NCBI GenBank assembly: GCA_009711805.1
Contig: VEMX01000051.1
Location: 1-39,874 of the forward strand
Reading direction: 5' to 3'
Length of the DNA stretch: 39,874 nucleotides
Source: Balneolaceae bacterium
GTDB taxonomy: Bacteria > Bacteroidota > Rhodothermia > Balneolales > Balneolaceae
Shown here: piece by piece, positions 9,165 through 39,874 of the stretch
How positions within the stretch are numbered: the stretch's first letter is position 1
Layout: the number at the start of each line of letters is the position of its first letter
Program-made: the position numbers and the translations under genes
Notes under the pieces: model-generated
Databases searched by the model: none
Told to the model about the DNA's origin: nothing
Seen by the model: the letters and a program-made list of their open reading frames with translations, nothing else

Positions 9165-10394
9165 TCAAAAGTAACTGGAAATTCCGATTTGAATGCCGGA
9201 AATTTTAGCCGGAGGATTACCCAAAATATCCTGTTGTTGCATATACCGGTAATTTAAACGGAGTACGGTTTGAGCAGATGGCCTAAAGCTTATACCGGGA
9301 ACAATGGCCCATAGATCATCTGAAATATTTGCCCCGGTTTCCCGGAAGGTTCCCACATTCCAATCTACATATTCCAGCCTGCAGGCCAGGTTCAGTACCG
9401 CATTATCAAAACCAGCAATAGTATTTCTTAAAACCGGCTGTACAATATCCACGAATCCTCCTTGTTGCTGGTCTCCGAATTGCTGGCCGTAGGTTTCTGG
9501 AACATCAACCATCACCCACGCCCATTCACCCGTAATATTGGTAGTTGTTTTTTCCAGGGTGGAATTAAAATCTACAGCAAAAACATCCAGCCGCCTTTTT
9601 TTATCCAGAATCAAACCGTCATCTTCAGAAGCATTGTAAATCCCCCCCATATAAGAAAGGCCTATTTCTCCAATGTTTTGGTTTTTTACAGCCAGTTTAG
9701 CTGTAATCAAAGGCTGACCGTTGCTGCTTTCTTCAAAGCGTTCGGCATTTTCTTTAGCCGCAGGCAAAAAGGTTCTGTTTTCTCCGTTTGCGATAATGCT
9801 GTTATCAAATCCGTTGGTGAGATAGATCTCATAGCCAAAGCCCCAATCGTTTACAAATCGCTTCCCGTAAAACCCAAAGCCCACATTGCTCCATGTAGCA
9901 GGCAACATTTTGGTCATGGCGATGGGGCGGTCAACAAATTCCCATTTAGGGCCGTCATGGTTCTGGTTAAAGGCTCCGATGGGGTTCATAATAATGCCCC
10001 CGCGAAGATTAAGCAGGGGAAAAAAGTTGATATCCAGTGCGGCAAATTCAATGGCTATTTCTTTCCCGCCCTCTTCAAATTCAGTTTCTGACAGGAACTT
10101 GATTTTTGGATGAAGGGAAGAGCCAACAAAAAGGGTAAACCGGGGAATACGGAAGGTATGGCCTTCGGTAATTCCGTCTTCTCCCATATATTGATAATCG
10201 GCTTCTACATAACCACCTACGGAAACGGGTGATGTACCAGCCTGAAAAAATGGTCGCTCATAAACAGCATCCATATTCATTGCTTCTGTTGATATCGTAT
10301 CACTCCGGGTATCTTTGAACAGGCTACTGTCAACCTGGGCATTAGCGGTAATGGAAGAGGCGAGAATTAAAAAAAGAAGTATATTTTTTTTCAT
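9165..10394 (-). CDS. Outer-membrane porin, phosphate-selective OprO/OprP type
   Basis: A 409-aa beta-barrel protein with a clear signal peptide (1-19, ending TANA). The mature part has alternating aromatic and polar strands (VGGYVEADYQYMG, LRLNYRYMQQQ) and ends in a C-terminal phenylalanine, the barrel-assembly signal. The pattern fits the phosphate-selective porin O/P family, but the actual solute cannot be read from sequence. It is the last gene of a minus-strand run after the Rieske and di-haem proteins, 39 bp from the Rieske stop. Co-expression with two redox proteins suggests uptake linked to an envelope redox process. Confidence 0.8.
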   Translation of the reverse strand: MKKNILLFLILASSITANAQVDSSLFKDTRSDTISTEAMNMDAVYERPFFQAGTSPVSVGGYVEADYQYMGEDGITEGHTFRIPRFTLFVGSSLHPKIKFLSETEFEEGGKEIAIEFAALDINFFPLLNLRGGIIMNPIGAFNQNHDGPKWEFVDRPIAMTKMLPATWSNVGFGFYGKRFVNDWGFGYEIYLTNGFDNSIIANGENRTFLPAAKENAERFEESSNGQPLITAKLAVKNQNIGEIGLSYMGGIYNASEDDGLILDKKRRLDVFAVDFNSTLEKTTTNITGEWAWVMVDVPETYGQQFGDQQQGGFVDIVQPVLRNTIAGFDNAVLNLACRLEYVDWNVGTFRETGANISDDLWAIVPGISFRPSAQTVLRLNYRYMQQQDILGNPPAKISGIQIGISSYF

Positions 10395-33238: not shown

Positions 33239-36172
33239 TTACTTTCCAATAAGAATAAAAGGAGCCCAATATACCGGGTGGTTATAGTACGGGTGTTCAA
33301 TCATTTTCAGTTTAGCTTCTCTTAATGCTTTGGCTTTATAATCGAACATAGGATGAGTGTAAAGGCCAAAGTAATCCAGTGATTTACTCCAGAGTCCGTA
33401 TTCCTGATTTTGATATGTAAGCATGCTGGAATAAAAATCTTTCATGAAAAGGGCGGTACTGCGATCAAATACATTCCACAGGCTTACCGAAACAGAAGAG
33501 GCCCCGGCCGTTAAAAACGAACGCTGAAGTCCCAGCAATCCTTCCCCGTTCATCTGCTTACCTACCCCGGTGTTACAGGCACTTAACACAACCATATCTG
33601 CTGACAAAGAAAGCATGGATATCTCAAGACTGTTTAAGAATCCATCCTCGCCAAACAAGGATTCCACTTCGGTGTTCTTGGATAGTATGAGCCCGCTTTG
33701 AGAAGGTTTTTGTTTATCAATTTCACCGTGAGTAGCAAAATGAAGGAAACGGAAGTCTGAATGGTCAAACGATTTAAAACCGGATTCGGTGACATCCTCA
33801 TTTTTGAGAACCTGGGTCTGCTCAAAATTTGTTGCAATAGAGTCTACCTCCAGTAAAGTAGAGGGCAAAGAAGCAAAAGAAGCTTCAGAACGGGTTTCAC
33901 TGGTGACGGAAGCACTTTTAAATCCGGTGCCGGCAAGGGCAAGCAAATCATGAGTTGTCTCGCGGTGAGGTTCCTGAATAAAATTATAAATAGTAACAGA
34001 GGGCAGGTATTTTACATTGTATTGCTCAATCAGGTATTGCCCGTCTATATCAAAAGCCTCGAAAGGAAGGAATGCAAGCGGGCCATCCGGTACGATAACC
34101 AGATTTTTAATCTCCGGGAGTTTTTCATTTAAATCAGCCAGTAAAACCCGGTACAGGGGCTTTGTAATTTTTTTCAACTCTTCAACAGGGATGGTTCCAG
34201 CTATCCCGGCACGGAATTGTTCTTCAAGGCCACTAAAATAATCCAGGGCAGGTGTGCGACCCACTGATTCAATAACAGAAGCAGTAAATTCATCTTTTGT
34301 TATACAAATACGCAGCAGTTTGTCTTTGGCAAAGGCATACTCTACAAAAGCGGTCTCTTCATCCAGCAGCTCCTGAGCCTTACGGGGAGTTATGGGATCT
34401 GGGTAGTCAAAGTTCTTCCACTCTTTGTTTTCCATCCGAACCTCGTTGAGAAAAGCCTGGTAATCAAACTCAGCATCGGCCAGTTGTTGCTTTAATACTG
34501 CCCTTTCTTCCGGGTTTTCAATATCACTCAGCTGGTCATTCAGTTTGTCAATATATTTTATTTTTTGCTGCTTTTTGATAAGTGTAGTTTCATCCAGCTG
34601 GACTAACGCCTGTCCCTGGGCTTCTGCTAACTCATCCAGCAATACCCTTGCTTTGGCTGCTTCAATAAGTTCAAAGGCCTTAAGGGACTGGCCATCCTCT
34701 ATATGCCAGCCGGCGACTTCGTAATAGAAACCGGCATAATTATTAAAAAACCCTCCTTTAAAAGTAAGGCCGGTAATATTTCGCTGCATAGAATCTATAA
34801 GGGCGAAGCTTTTTTGAGCCATAACATACGAACGGTCATTCCCTGTCTTTCGGTAAACTCGTGCCAAATTCATTAAAGGAGACATTTGCCATGTAAACGG
34901 CAATTTATTTGAAACCAATTGTGCAGTTCGGTAAGCCTCCATGCTTTGCTGCAAAGAATCAATACTACTGTATACTTCCCCTTTAAACAGGTTGCCTTTG
35001 CATATGACATAAAGAAAGTTTCTTTCATTTCCTATAGACAAGGCCTTTTCTGTTAGCATCAGGGCTTTGTCAACATTTCCGGTTTTATAAAGCAGGTTGG
35101 CCTGGTCCTGGTATAAGTCTGCCAGGGCTTTGGGGGCATGGGTATTTGCGAGTAGTGTTTCTGCCCGGTTATAATATGTTTTCGCTTTTTGAAAAGCTTT
35201 TTGTTTAATATACAAGTCGGCTATTTGCCGAAGGTTGGCAGCTATATCCCTCGGCCGGTCAGTTTGCTGATTATAGCCCAGGGCCTCTTCGTAATACTGG
35301 CGGGCAGTTTCCAGGTTGCCGGACTGCTCATATAAACTTCCAATTTCTGAAAGAGTTTCAGTAATATCATAAGGGTTGTCCAGTTTGCGGGAGAGGGCCA
35401 GCGAACGATGGTAATACACCAGGGCACTGTCGGTTTTGCCTTGCTGTTTAAACAACCAGGCCATATTGTGGTATCCCACATCCAGCAGATCGGGGTTATT
35501 TAAATGTTCGCGAATATAAAGACTTTCCCGCATATAGGATTCAGCCCGGTCATAGAGGCCAAGGTCTGCCAAGTCAGAAAAAACACCCGAAAGTGCTAAT
35601 GCAAGTCGATATTCCTGATTGCCCAAAGAGCGGTATATATCAAGACTTTGCCGACGGAGCTTTAAAGCTGATTCAAAATCTCCGAAATCGCTTTTAACAT
35701 TTGACATGTTGTAGCTAAGCCTGGCTATCATAAGCGAATCATTACTTCGTATAGCTAAGTTTAAGGCTTCGGTATAATATTGCTGTGCAACCTTGTTTTG
35801 CCTTATCTTGCGTGATGCCCAACCAATATTGTTATATGTTCGTGCTTTGTATGAAACAGGAGTATTAACAGGCTTCTTACGACGTACGGTATGAAACCAG
35901 TCCAACCCTTCTTGTACCTGTCCCTGGTCTACCAATGTTTCCCCGTAATAAAGAGTTGCATTTACCCATTTAACCGAATCATTCCGTTGTAAGAACTTCT
36001 CCATAGCTTGGTTAAAATACTGCCCGGCTTTCTCATAATTAGCTTTTGAAACATAAGTTTTCCCCTTTTTCATAAGGGAATCGGGATGAGTGGGCAAATC
36101 TGCCTGAGCAAGCACACTCCCGCCCAAGCCTACAAAAACAAGTATAAGAAATGAAATATATTGTACTTTCAT
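33239..36172 (-). CDS. TPR-CHAT protein (caspase-like protease)
   Basis: A 977-aa exported protein (signal peptide about 1-22, ending VLAQ). Tetratricopeptide repeats run from about residue 25 to 480 (about ten; for example YNNIGWASRKIRQNKVAQQYYTEAL starts near 107). A coiled-coil stretch (about 530-590) follows, and a C-terminal CHAT domain covers about 640-977. The caspase-type dyad is present: H815 (HFATHG) and C866 (LSACNTG). CHAT proteases include separase relatives and bacterial effectors such as gasdermin-activating and CRISPR-linked proteases; secreted TPR-CHAT forms are common in Bacteroidota and poorly understood. It is divergent from the small peptide gene and beside a peptide exporter. 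Confidence 0.92.
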   Translation of the reverse strand: MKVQYISFLILVFVGLGGSVLAQADLPTHPDSLMKKGKTYVSKANYEKAGQYFNQAMEKFLQRNDSVKWVNATLYYGETLVDQGQVQEGLDWFHTVRRKKPVNTPVSYKARTYNNIGWASRKIRQNKVAQQYYTEALNLAIRSNDSLMIARLSYNMSNVKSDFGDFESALKLRRQSLDIYRSLGNQEYRLALALSGVFSDLADLGLYDRAESYMRESLYIREHLNNPDLLDVGYHNMAWLFKQQGKTDSALVYYHRSLALSRKLDNPYDITETLSEIGSLYEQSGNLETARQYYEEALGYNQQTDRPRDIAANLRQIADLYIKQKAFQKAKTYYNRAETLLANTHAPKALADLYQDQANLLYKTGNVDKALMLTEKALSIGNERNFLYVICKGNLFKGEVYSSIDSLQQSMEAYRTAQLVSNKLPFTWQMSPLMNLARVYRKTGNDRSYVMAQKSFALIDSMQRNITGLTFKGGFFNNYAGFYYEVAGWHIEDGQSLKAFELIEAAKARVLLDELAEAQGQALVQLDETTLIKKQQKIKYIDKLNDQLSDIENPEERAVLKQQLADAEFDYQAFLNEVRMENKEWKNFDYPDPITPRKAQELLDEETAFVEYAFAKDKLLRICITKDEFTASVIESVGRTPALDYFSGLEEQFRAGIAGTIPVEELKKITKPLYRVLLADLNEKLPEIKNLVIVPDGPLAFLPFEAFDIDGQYLIEQYNVKYLPSVTIYNFIQEPHRETTHDLLALAGTGFKSASVTSETRSEASFASLPSTLLEVDSIATNFEQTQVLKNEDVTESGFKSFDHSDFRFLHFATHGEIDKQKPSQSGLILSKNTEVESLFGEDGFLNSLEISMLSLSADMVVLSACNTGVGKQMNGEGLLGLQRSFLTAGASSVSVSLWNVFDRSTALFMKDFYSSMLTYQNQEYGLWSKSLDYFGLYTHPMFDYKAKALREAKLKMIEHPYYNHPVYWAPFILIGK

Positions 36173-36260
36173 GAATTAGCTTGCCCTTCCTAATTGCATT
36201 TAACTTAAATATATACTTTTTTGGAAAGAACAACCTGAAGAAAACAAAAGAGGTTCAGTT
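36173..36260. promoter_or_regulatory. Divergent promoter region between CHAT and peptide genes
   Basis: This 88-bp AT-rich spacer must hold the promoters of both genes. On the plus strand TTGCATTTAAC begins at about 36201 and is followed some 17 bases later by TACTTTTTTG, a loose match to TTTG-N19-TAnnTTTG. The peptide's ribosome-binding site AAGAGGT is at 36248-36254. Confidence 0.45.
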
Positions 36261-36368
36261 ATGAAAAAAGAACACAAAAGTTGGTCAGATATACTTTATC
36301 AACGCCCGGGAGGAGATGGAGACGACAAGAAGGGAGGAGAAGACGATGATCCCCCGGATCCCACTTAG
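36261..36368 (+). CDS. 35-aa acidic Gly-Asp-Pro-rich peptide, candidate exported peptide precursor
   Basis: ATG at 36261, TAG at 36366, with AAGAGGT six bases upstream of the start and a hairpin terminator 30 bp after the stop; together these make it a likely real gene. The first half (MKKEHKSWSDILYQRPGG) is basic and leader-like. It ends in a double glycine (17-18) with Leu at -7, as in C39-processed leaders, though the usual hydrophobic residue at -4 is Arg. A second GG is at 25-26. The tail after G18 has seven Asp, one Glu, two Lys and several Pro, with no Cys, Ser or aromatic residue. The neighbouring C39 exporter could cut and export it. Function is unknown; it may instead be a small regulator of the CHAT protein. 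Confidence 0.6.
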   Translation: MKKEHKSWSDILYQRPGGDGDDKKGGEDDDPPDPT

Positions 36369-36400
36369 TGGTACAGAAACATACATTTTTTGATTCAAAT

Positions 36401-36430
36401 AAACCCCGCCTTAGCACGCTGGGTTTTTAT
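36401..36430 (+). terminator. Terminator between peptide and HlyD genes
   Basis: AAACCC (36401-36406) pairs with GGGTTT (36421-36426), with further GC pairing inside, followed by TTTAT on the plus strand. On the minus strand it lies 10 bases past the HlyD-type gene stop and may work in both directions. Confidence 0.65.
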
Positions 36431-36436
36431 ATTTCA

Positions 36437-37567
36437 TCAATAGGTAAAAGCCGTCCCTTTCAATTGGTCAAATAGCAGAAGGTCTCTTTCATGGGTGGGA
36501 GATAATATAAGTTGATACTGCCCATTTTCGTTTGCGGTAGTTGAAATGGAGGTAATACCGGCATCAATAAGACTTATATCTAAAAATGTATCGTTCCTGA
36601 ATACGATTTTTGCCTTTTTGTTCTCTGAAATTTTTAAAGCAATATGAGGAGATACGTGTGCTTCAAAGTAATAATTCCCTGTTTCTAAATAAGAGAATAA
36701 AATTGAACCCGACTCTACATATTGCTGGGTATTCAGATAGGTTAGGGGTGAGGAAAAATCTTTGGGAGTTAAAATGGTAATAGAACCAGGATTAACCTCA
36801 AATGCCCCATACTTCTGCTTAAACTTAGTTTTAGCCGAAATTATTTTTGACTGGATAGTAGTAAGAGCACCAAGAATTTGAACCTGACTGTTTTTTAATT
36901 GTTGTAATGCATTGCTATAGTTTAGATAAGATGTGCCTGGTTCTGTTTCAGATTGGTTTGTTTCAAAATTAAGCTGATACAACTTCTCTTTGTTATCAAT
37001 GTACTGCCGAAGTACAGATACCTTTTCCTGGTTTAACTTTGTTTTTGATTCAATTTCTTTTTCTAACAAAGTTTCGGATTGTAAAAGAAGTGCCTGGTTG
37101 AGAGAATCTACCTGTGAAACCAGATTTAATAGTGAAGCCCTGTATTCGGAAGACAACTGTTTCTGGTAATTTGCATTATTGCGAAGTTGCTGCTTTTGTT
37201 CATGCACTAACTTTTCGATTGTTGTGATAGATACTGAGTCAGTTGCTACAATTTTTTTGTAAAATTGTTCTTCACGTTTCAACCTTAGATAATTAGTTGT
37301 CTCTTCCCGGATTTGTTCGGATGTTATGGTTGCCAAGGGAGTTCCGCTTTGTAATGTTGAGCCAACCATAACATGTCGTTGAACAATCTCTACCCTTTCA
37401 TCAGAAATAAATGAATATTTATCAGGATATTTTACTGTTGCAGTGAATTTTGTAACCCCGGTAATAGATTGCAGAAAAAGAAAAACAACCACAATGACTG
37501 GTACTGCAAAAAAAGTCAGTTTTTTTAAAAAGCTGAATTTTTTATCGTTTTTAAGAAATGGATCCAT
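36437..37567 (-). CDS. HlyD-type periplasmic adaptor (membrane fusion protein)
   Basis: A 376-aa adaptor of the HlyD/bacteriocin-secretion type that links the inner-membrane exporter to the outer membrane. It has one N-terminal membrane segment (about 17-36) and a lipoyl-like half-motif (VMVGSTLQSGTPLATI, 66-82). A long helical hairpin (about 85-265) is followed by the second lipoyl half and beta-barrel (GSITILTPKDFSSPLTYLNTQQYVESGSILF). It starts 8 bp after the ABC exporter stop, so the two form one operon. No TolC-like gene is in the window. Confidence 0.85.
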   Translation of the reverse strand: MDPFLKNDKKFSFLKKLTFFAVPVIVVVFLFLQSITGVTKFTATVKYPDKYSFISDERVEIVQRHVMVGSTLQSGTPLATITSEQIREETTNYLRLKREEQFYKKIVATDSVSITTIEKLVHEQKQQLRNNANYQKQLSSEYRASLLNLVSQVDSLNQALLLQSETLLEKEIESKTKLNQEKVSVLRQYIDNKEKLYQLNFETNQSETEPGTSYLNYSNALQQLKNSQVQILGALTTIQSKIISAKTKFKQKYGAFEVNPGSITILTPKDFSSPLTYLNTQQYVESGSILFSYLETGNYYFEAHVSPHIALKISENKKAKIVFRNDTFLDISLIDAGITSISTTANENGQYQLILSPTHERDLLLFDQLKGTAFTY

Positions 37568-37575
37568 ACAATTTG

Positions 37576-39735
37576 TTAGGTTGATTGAAGAACAAAATTT
37601 TCATAGAGGCCTTTCTGTTTCATTAATTGGTTATGGTTTCCACATTCTGCGAGCTGCCCATCATCTATGACTAAAATCTCGTCAAACTTTTTTAATGCAT
37701 GTATTCGGTGAGCCACAGAAATAATCATGGTGTCCTTAAATTGTTGGTATGTGTTACTCAATAGCACTTTTTCTGCGTCAGGATCTAAAGAACTGGTAGC
37801 CTCATCAAGGATGATAACAGAGGGGTTACTCAAGAATAACCGAGCAAACCCAAATCGCAATTTTTGTCCGGTAGATAGTTTCATGCCCCTATCTCCTACT
37901 CTATGGTTTAACCCAAGGTAAAATTCATCTACCATATTTTTCAGTCCGGCAAGTTCGAGAGCCTGATATATTTCATTGTCTGAGGCTTCCGGGTTAGCTA
38001 CCAGCATGTTATTTCGAATAGAAACATCAAATAAATAAACTTCTGAAGGAAAATAGAATATATTTTTTCGGAGAGTTTTCTTTTTTATTTTGTTTATCGG
38101 CTCATCATTTAAGTAGATATTACCTTCATAGTGATCGTATAGTTGGATGATTAGTTTTATCAATGTTGTTTTACCAGAGCCATTTTTTCCAACAACACCA
38201 TATTTTTTTCCCTTATAAAAAGTAACATTGACCCCCTTTAAAATTTCAGCTTCACTATCATAGGAAAAATACAGATCTGAAATAGTAATAGATTGAATAT
38301 CAATTCTTTTGCTTTGTGTTTGCTCATCATTACTTTCTTCAATTTTTTTTATAAAAAAATCTGTTACCCGTTCAAGAGAATGATCAATCTTAATTAACCG
38401 ATTTCGTAAAAGCACCACCTGACTAACCGATCCCAAAGCCATGTAGTATATTGCATTGACAGCAATAAAATCTCCAAAACTGATACTTCCAGTCTGGATT
38501 AACAGTATAGAGGAAAAAAGAACAATGATCCTCGATACCAGAGAAGTTGCAATAATGTAAACCCGCTGTCCTATAACCAGCTCTTCCGAGTTAAATATAT
38601 TCAGGAGAGAGGATTTGTACATATTATCCCATTTGCTCGAAAAGTAGCCTTCTGCAGTTAATGGTTTTACATTTTTAAGCCCGAGAAATCCATCAAGGAA
38701 AATATTTAAGACTTTGTTCTTCTCATGAAAAATCAGGTTCTCATTATTGATAATGATTGGAGAGGTGTATAGAATAAGTGCTAAATTGACAAGAACAGTA
38801 ATAAAAGCAACAACAAATACTTCAGTACTTAGAACAAACAGTATCAGCAAATAGATGAAGAGAAAGACAGAATTGAAAAAAGAATCCAACAAACTTGAAG
38901 ATAACAAAGAACGAAGACGGTTGTTCTCACCAAAGCGGTTGATGATATCCTCTTTTTTGTACCTGTCAAAGTAACGTTGCTTTAATCGTATTAAATGATC
39001 GAAAAGAGAGGAAAAGTAAAAATGCTCGAAGCTGAACTTAATTTGAGAGAAAAGTTTGTCCCGGGAATAAAAACCCACCGCAATTAAGCCTACAGTTAAT
39101 AATGTAAATAAAAATAAAAAAGCCAAGCCTTCTATCCCTAACGATATTCCATAATCAAAAATAAATTTGATTAATAAGGGAATAATTAGGTAGAGTATTT
39201 TGATAGAAAAAGACAATGCAAAAAGAGAAAAAAATAGTTTCTTTTTGCTCTTTGCATATTCAATAAAGGGAGCAAACTTTAACGATTTATAGTTTTTTCT
39301 AAAATGTTCAAGATCGGTTTCCAAAGCCTGGCCTGAAAAACTTTCTGTTGGAGTTAACTCAAGAATAATACCATTCCATTTATCAAGAAATGCCTTTCGA
39401 TTTAGTTTATACTTGCCTATAGCCGGGTCCGAAATATAGAAAGCACTTTTGTTTATCTTGTGCAACACTACAAAGTGATTGCTCTCGAAATGTAATATGC
39501 ACGGTAATTGTACCTCCTGAAGTTCAGATACTGAAAGCTCATATCCTTGTGGATTTAAATGATACGACTTGGCAAGTTGAGAGATGTTAAACAGTGAGGT
39601 ACCACTTCGGGATAATTCTGACTCTTCATCTAATAATTGTTTCAGGTTTCCATATCCATAATATTTAAGAATAATAGCCAACGAAGTGGTGCCGCAAGCC
39701 ATACTGCTATTCTGCCGTAAATGGGGGAATTTCAT
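37576..39735 (-). CDS. C39-peptidase ABC exporter (bacteriocin/peptide type)
   Basis: A 719-aa peptidase-containing ABC transporter that would cut a double-glycine leader and export the peptide. The C39 domain (1-130) has Q8, C14 (ACGTT), H87 (NHFVV) and D103 (SDP), so the peptidase should be active. The membrane domain (about 155-450) has six helices. The nucleotide-binding domain has Walker A GKNGSGKT (about 512-519), signature LSTGQ (about 618), Walker B VIILDEA (about 641) and the H-loop His (about 675). The repeat begins 12 bp upstream of the ATG, so the native promoter is probably displaced. Confidence 0.93.
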   Translation of the reverse strand: MKFPHLRQNSSMACGTTSLAIILKYYGYGNLKQLLDEESELSRSGTSLFNISQLAKSYHLNPQGYELSVSELQEVQLPCILHFESNHFVVLHKINKSAFYISDPAIGKYKLNRKAFLDKWNGIILELTPTESFSGQALETDLEHFRKNYKSLKFAPFIEYAKSKKKLFFSLFALSFSIKILYLIIPLLIKFIFDYGISLGIEGLAFLFLFTLLTVGLIAVGFYSRDKLFSQIKFSFEHFYFSSLFDHLIRLKQRYFDRYKKEDIINRFGENNRLRSLLSSSLLDSFFNSVFLFIYLLILFVLSTEVFVVAFITVLVNLALILYTSPIIINNENLIFHEKNKVLNIFLDGFLGLKNVKPLTAEGYFSSKWDNMYKSSLLNIFNSEELVIGQRVYIIATSLVSRIIVLFSSILLIQTGSISFGDFIAVNAIYYMALGSVSQVVLLRNRLIKIDHSLERVTDFFIKKIEESNDEQTQSKRIDIQSITISDLYFSYDSEAEILKGVNVTFYKGKKYGVVGKNGSGKTTLIKLIIQLYDHYEGNIYLNDEPINKIKKKTLRKNIFYFPSEVYLFDVSIRNNMLVANPEASDNEIYQALELAGLKNMVDEFYLGLNHRVGDRGMKLSTGQKLRFGFARLFLSNPSVIILDEATSSLDPDAEKVLLSNTYQQFKDTMIISVAHRIHALKKFDEILVIDDGQLAECGNHNQLMKQKGLYENFVLQST

Positions 39736-39747
39736 TTCTTTTTGAGA

Positions 39748-39874
39748 GCTGTGTTCAAGTCACTAATGCAACAGAGGCTGCGTGGTGTTTTAGGGTTTGC
39801 TGTATGGGGGAAAGGTACCCAAATTTTCGAATAGGTCTATTATTGAGGTGTCGTTCAACGATTTTAATGCGCCG
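39748..39874. repeat. Right copy of 127-bp terminal inverted repeat
   Basis: Exact reverse complement of positions 1-127. Its inner end (GCTGTGTTCAAG) lies 12 bp before the exporter's start codon. See the left copy for interpretation. Confidence 0.95.

Follow-up and report, generated by a model that had tools for sequence, protein, structure and literature searches.

A conserved acidic mini-protein gene accompanies one group of TPR-CHAT proteases in Balneolaceae

The window analyzed here is a stretch of 39,874 nt from contig VEMX01000051.1 (C37 in our numbering) of a Balneolaceae bacterium. A mini-protein gene of 35 aa lies on its plus strand (36261..36368) and translates as MKKEHKSWSDILYQRPGGDGDDKKGGEDDDPPDPT followed by a stop codon, with a head, MKKEHKSWSDILYQR, and a tail, PGGDGDDKKGGEDDDPPDPT. 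A Shine-Dalgarno (SD)-like sequence, AAAAGAGG, is located 5' of the ATG (36246..36253, +). On the minus strand, a gene for a TPR-CHAT protein (33239..36172) is transcribed divergently, and its start is 88 bp from that of the mini-ORF. The 88-bp intergenic region (36173..36260) is presumed, from its position, to hold the promoters of both genes; a consensus scan found no consensus sigma-70 promoter there. Downstream of the mini-ORF, a terminator-like hairpin, AAACCC...GGGTTTTT (36401..36428, +), is imperfect in the window and was missed by a consensus terminator scan, and it is stronger in a second copy on contig C67 of the same genome. Two minus-strand genes, convergent to the mini-gene, follow: a HlyD-like adaptor (36437..37567; Pfam HlyD_3) and a C39 peptidase-ABC transporter (37576..39735; Pfam Peptidase_C39, E=5e-32, and ABC_tran). 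The mini-gene matched no Pfam or NCBIfam model, and a tRNA was the sole Rfam match over the window.

The TPR-CHAT protein, 977 aa long, combines TPR repeats with a CHAT domain (Pfam CHAT, E=4e-63); its N terminus resembles a signal peptide, and it is predicted to be secreted. Its His/Cys pair (H815/C866 here) was identical in 15/15 orthologues. With TPR repeats and a CHAT domain carrying conserved His and Cys, it belongs to the TPR-CHAT class, its proteolysis being putative. The best PDB matches of its TPRs were the TPRs of kinesin light chain, and PADLOC returned weak matches alone, confined to the TPR part.

Orthologues of this protease were found in 41/77 genomes of the family, counting the window genome. 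A short divergent ORF near the protease start was present beside all of them (41/41), a count that, like those of the motif and of the substitutions given below, shares ancestry and does not represent independent events. A fixed criterion identified 35 of these mini-ORFs, and the other 6 were recognised by looser inspection alone; the same fixed criterion picked out 2/820 dinucleotide shuffles and, when applied to the opposite strand, 0/41. The first-pass annotation, made from the window letters, had proposed an overlooked gene at 36261-36368. This was borne out: the mini-ORF is a real, conserved gene, one of 41 divergent acidic mini-ORFs beside orthologous proteases.

Across the family, the mini-proteins are 28-49 aa in size, for example MGNILYKNPDPENDGDEDKKGGDSDTEQT and MNYIISNTEKFNIPDGDGKPGSGSGSGKEDTGGTGEV. 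The distance from mini-ORF start to protease start is 63-99 nt in many genomes and 150-590 nt in one group, and the spacing in the window matches that in its closest relatives. An SD-like motif precedes 24/41 members, and a terminator-like hairpin lies 3' of many. The head is short and usually has an aromatic residue. The tail is low-complexity and fast-changing, with a composition over the 41 members of D 0.24, G 0.25, P 0.15 and E 0.07, and hydrophobic residues are almost absent; Cys occurs in 1/41 mini-proteins. The best-conserved feature is the head/tail boundary. The motif [YFW]xxP[DG] was found in 14/41 members, compared with a mean of 5.3 in shuffled heads, and 0/1000 trials reached 14. 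The unusual acidic Asp/Pro/Gly tail described at first pass was likewise confirmed, and the window sequence is acidic and has no Cys, Ser or aromatic residue after its first GG. The suggestion that this tail binds calcium found no support as a family trait: on inspection, Asp spacing was not fixed across the 41 mini-proteins. Some tails are rich in Asp, others in Ser/Thr or in poly-Pro/Gly, and several consist mostly of the last two kinds.

We then compared the distribution of the mini-gene with that of its neighbors. In many relatives ftsY is the next, convergent gene, and close relatives have the order CHAT - mini-gene - ftsY. Twenty relatives without this TPR-CHAT orthologue (CHAT1) had no mini-ORF beyond ftsY (0/20), and 11 of those 20 ftsY regions hold another CHAT-like gene. 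In nine genomes (L143-L151), a second CHAT gene, CHAT2, lies between ftsY and CHAT1, and the mini-ORF stays adjoining CHAT1; the CHAT2 paralogue, about 1030 aa, has no mini-gene of its own. Present with CHAT1, absent without it and separable from ftsY, the mini-gene therefore tracks one specific protease. In the genomes compared, these data show that it occurs with one TPR-CHAT orthologous group, not with ftsY or CHAT2. Outside the family studied here (f1), the sole clear case is a TPR-CHAT homologue with a divergent acidic ORF, MSVIDELQMHGYAMMPDKDDDERNSDDSSTGKKSEDDPKDDEDDEKDKD (L104), from another family within the order; no mini-ORF was found beside distant CHAT homologues in families f4, f12 and f19.

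To examine protein-level selection, we counted substitutions in 12 disjoint close pairs, using nucleotide alignments that were not protein-guided. Third positions of the frame accounted for 161/323 substitutions, against one third expected (p about 7e-10). Between the window tail and its copy on C67, 6/7 codon-aligned substitutions were at third positions, and the single indel was 6 nt and in frame. The substitution pattern between relatives, put forward at first pass as a check, thus favors protein-level selection, and these alignments show a protein-coding mini-ORF constrained at the codon level.

Direct searches with the peptide in 97 relatives and 244 genomes of the class gave chance matches only. 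Those in G187, falling within a 238-residue open frame, and on the GC-rich contig C15 of G001 were both dismissed as chance. Because the tail is low-complexity, this kind of search is uninformative and synteny is required.

A DNA search of the same genome returned one relative, C67:234-357, which is 87% identical to window positions 36304-36433 (+). This break-point repeat covers the tail, stop codon, 3'UTR and terminator. It excludes the head, whose identity is 13/39 nt, no better than shuffles. On C67, ftsY lies 60 nt after the stop codon of this second tail copy. The C67 ORF reads MKTLTEEELRTVYGGPGGDEEDKKEEEDPPDPT, and its leader (peptide P0004) scores 18.6 bits with the double-glycine leader model TIGR01847, above the cut-off of 15.7. 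The ORF at C67:191-292 (G000; L003:191-292) is a chimaera in which the window gene's acidic tail follows a canonical double-glycine leader, with PGGDEEDKKEEEDPPDPT as predicted product.

The window genome thus carries the CHAT gene and the mini-gene on C37, then the HlyD and C39 genes, with ftsY on C67. The HlyD gene and the C39-ABC gene are presumed to form an inserted island: the window HlyD was absent from 76/76 family relatives and found in its own genome only. A search of the genome contigs for the C39 transporter returned distant transporters only. One end of a multi-copy insertion element (39747..39874) lies upstream of the C39-ABC gene, beginning about 12 bp from its start codon, and the promoter of that gene may have been lost to it. 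The opposite end of the window is the same insertion element (C37:1-127). It appears that the C39/HlyD island, with the insertion element, split an ancestral CHAT-peptide-ftsY locus, the assembly having a gap at the element, and that the island is a recent neighbor of the mini-gene. In the simplest reading, the island would have arrived with the tail-terminator segment duplicated at its edge, and the far copy would have acquired or brought the double-glycine leader. Other double-glycine peptide genes occur in this genome (L035:4931-5143, L037:7124-7339 and 9223-9447, L052:7106-7550, L033:8698-8919). They include a MNAIKLLSR.EMK..GG family with Cys-containing cores, and most of their contigs also hold C39 or HlyD sequences.

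The window ORF itself had been read at first pass as a double-glycine leader peptide giving a 17- or a 9-residue product, and the neighborhood could invite the view that it is the precursor of a bacteriocin or pheromone, with the adjoining, intact-looking C39-ABC and HlyD proteins as its exporter, all the more so as the leader of the C67 tail copy passes the TIGR01847 cut-off. We consider this very improbable, and we rejected a bacteriocin or double-glycine leader for the window ORF. The ORF (P0001) matched no bacteriocin-leader model, TIGR01847 included. Double-glycine leaders carry a hydrophobic residue at position -4; at this position the window ORF has Arg before the first GG and Lys before the second. 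The GG dipeptides are not conserved as a leader site among the orthologues, which lack a leader of this kind, and the C67 tail follows a canonical leader of its own that stops directly before the PGGD common to both tails, so neither predicted product stands. Because the true double-glycine of C67 precedes PGGD, the first GG of the window ORF is part of the tail (PGGD). Moreover, HlyD occurs in 0/76 relatives, yet the mini-protein is found in 40 of them.

Two further explanations were weighed. The short ORF might be a translated regulatory leader or spacer in a divergent promoter region, its product irrelevant, as a low-complexity, fast-changing peptide could suggest; the third-position excess, the conservation of composition and frame in 41 genomes and the terminator-like hairpin after many of the mini-ORFs argue against it, and we regard it as improbable. 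Still harder to sustain, and the least credible of the readings weighed here, is that the mini-ORF is conserved merely through a conserved ftsY-CHAT neighborhood. ftsY is indeed its convergent neighbor in many relatives, but the 20 ftsY regions without CHAT1 lack the mini-ORF, and 9 genomes keep it beside CHAT1, apart from ftsY. A third possibility makes the mini-protein itself the final product, either a processed peptide or a signal that is secreted, with the CHAT protein as a maturation protease that cuts near aromatic-xx-P-D and frees the tail. The conserved head/tail boundary fits such a cut, and on C67 it is precisely the tail that follows a GG leader, as though this were the part worth exporting. 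A Pro near the presumed cut site, however, disfavors many proteases, and relatives show no modification enzyme or exporter beside the pair; we hold this reading to be unlikely, though less so than the others.

The constant pairing of the mini-gene with one TPR-CHAT protease in related genomes suggests a dedicated partner or substrate. We therefore lean, by a modest degree, towards the mini-protein being a small, probably disordered dedicated partner of the divergent TPR-CHAT protease. The genomes compared show the genetic pairing; the biochemistry of the pair is inferred. The precedents of kinesin light chain and of Csx29-Csx30, described below, count in favor of this reading, as do the excess of the [YFW]xxP[DG] motif and the conserved His/Cys pair. 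The aromatic-acidic segment of the mini-protein would bind the TPR solenoid of the protease, and the bound mini-protein might be presented to the CHAT His-Cys site as a substrate or as an inhibitory or activating ligand. Against this partner reading, the Sec-type signal-peptide-like N terminus of the protease has no counterpart on the mini-protein, which carries no export signal, so the two may end up in different compartments. The TPRs are mostly acidic (net negative in 13/15 orthologues), and the idea that the acidic tail docks by simple electrostatics on a basic TPR found no support. The low-complexity, fast-changing tail, the single clear case outside f1 and the six members recognised by looser inspection also weigh against the partner reading. 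More tentatively, and with appreciably less confidence than for the partnership itself, we propose a previously undescribed two-gene system, in which an exported TPR-CHAT caspase-like protease would be regulated by, or act on, an acidic mini-protein via aromatic-xx-P-D, and in which, in one lineage, a double-glycine leader captured the tail and directed it to export through C39.

Secreted proteins of the TPR-CHAT type are widespread in the family. We found no description of a partner or substrate for them, nor of such a protease/mini-protein pair in the open-access literature, and the mini-protein is a concrete candidate. Its case illustrates that genomic context can bring to light a tiny gene to which Pfam and NCBIfam models are blind. 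The C67 chimaera, in which the same tail is joined to an export leader, is a natural leader-swap.

Among known systems, TIGR01847 double-glycine leaders, of the class II bacteriocin/ComC type, are found in the C67 chimaera and not in the window ORF or its orthologues, and the mini-gene is not a member of the GG-peptide/C39 loci, several of which occur in the same genome. Kinesin light chain TPRs bind Y-acidic peptides, that is, short aromatic-acidic peptides (PMC6214655). With their W-acidic/Y-acidic ligands they are the nearest solved TPR relatives of the protease, a likeness that lies in the TPR sequence only and would be compatible with a similar ligand. In type III-E CRISPR (Craspase), the TPR-CHAT protein Csx29 cuts a dedicated protein substrate, Csx30, for which H615/C658 are needed (PMC10028731). 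Csx29 works inside a CRISPR effector and is activated by RNA, whereas the window protease begins with a signal-peptide-like segment; the large Csx30 differs in turn from the low-complexity mini-protein of 28-49 aa. Both systems likewise combine a TPR-CHAT protein bearing a His/Cys pair with a dedicated partner encoded nearby, cleavage of the partner being putative in the pair described here.
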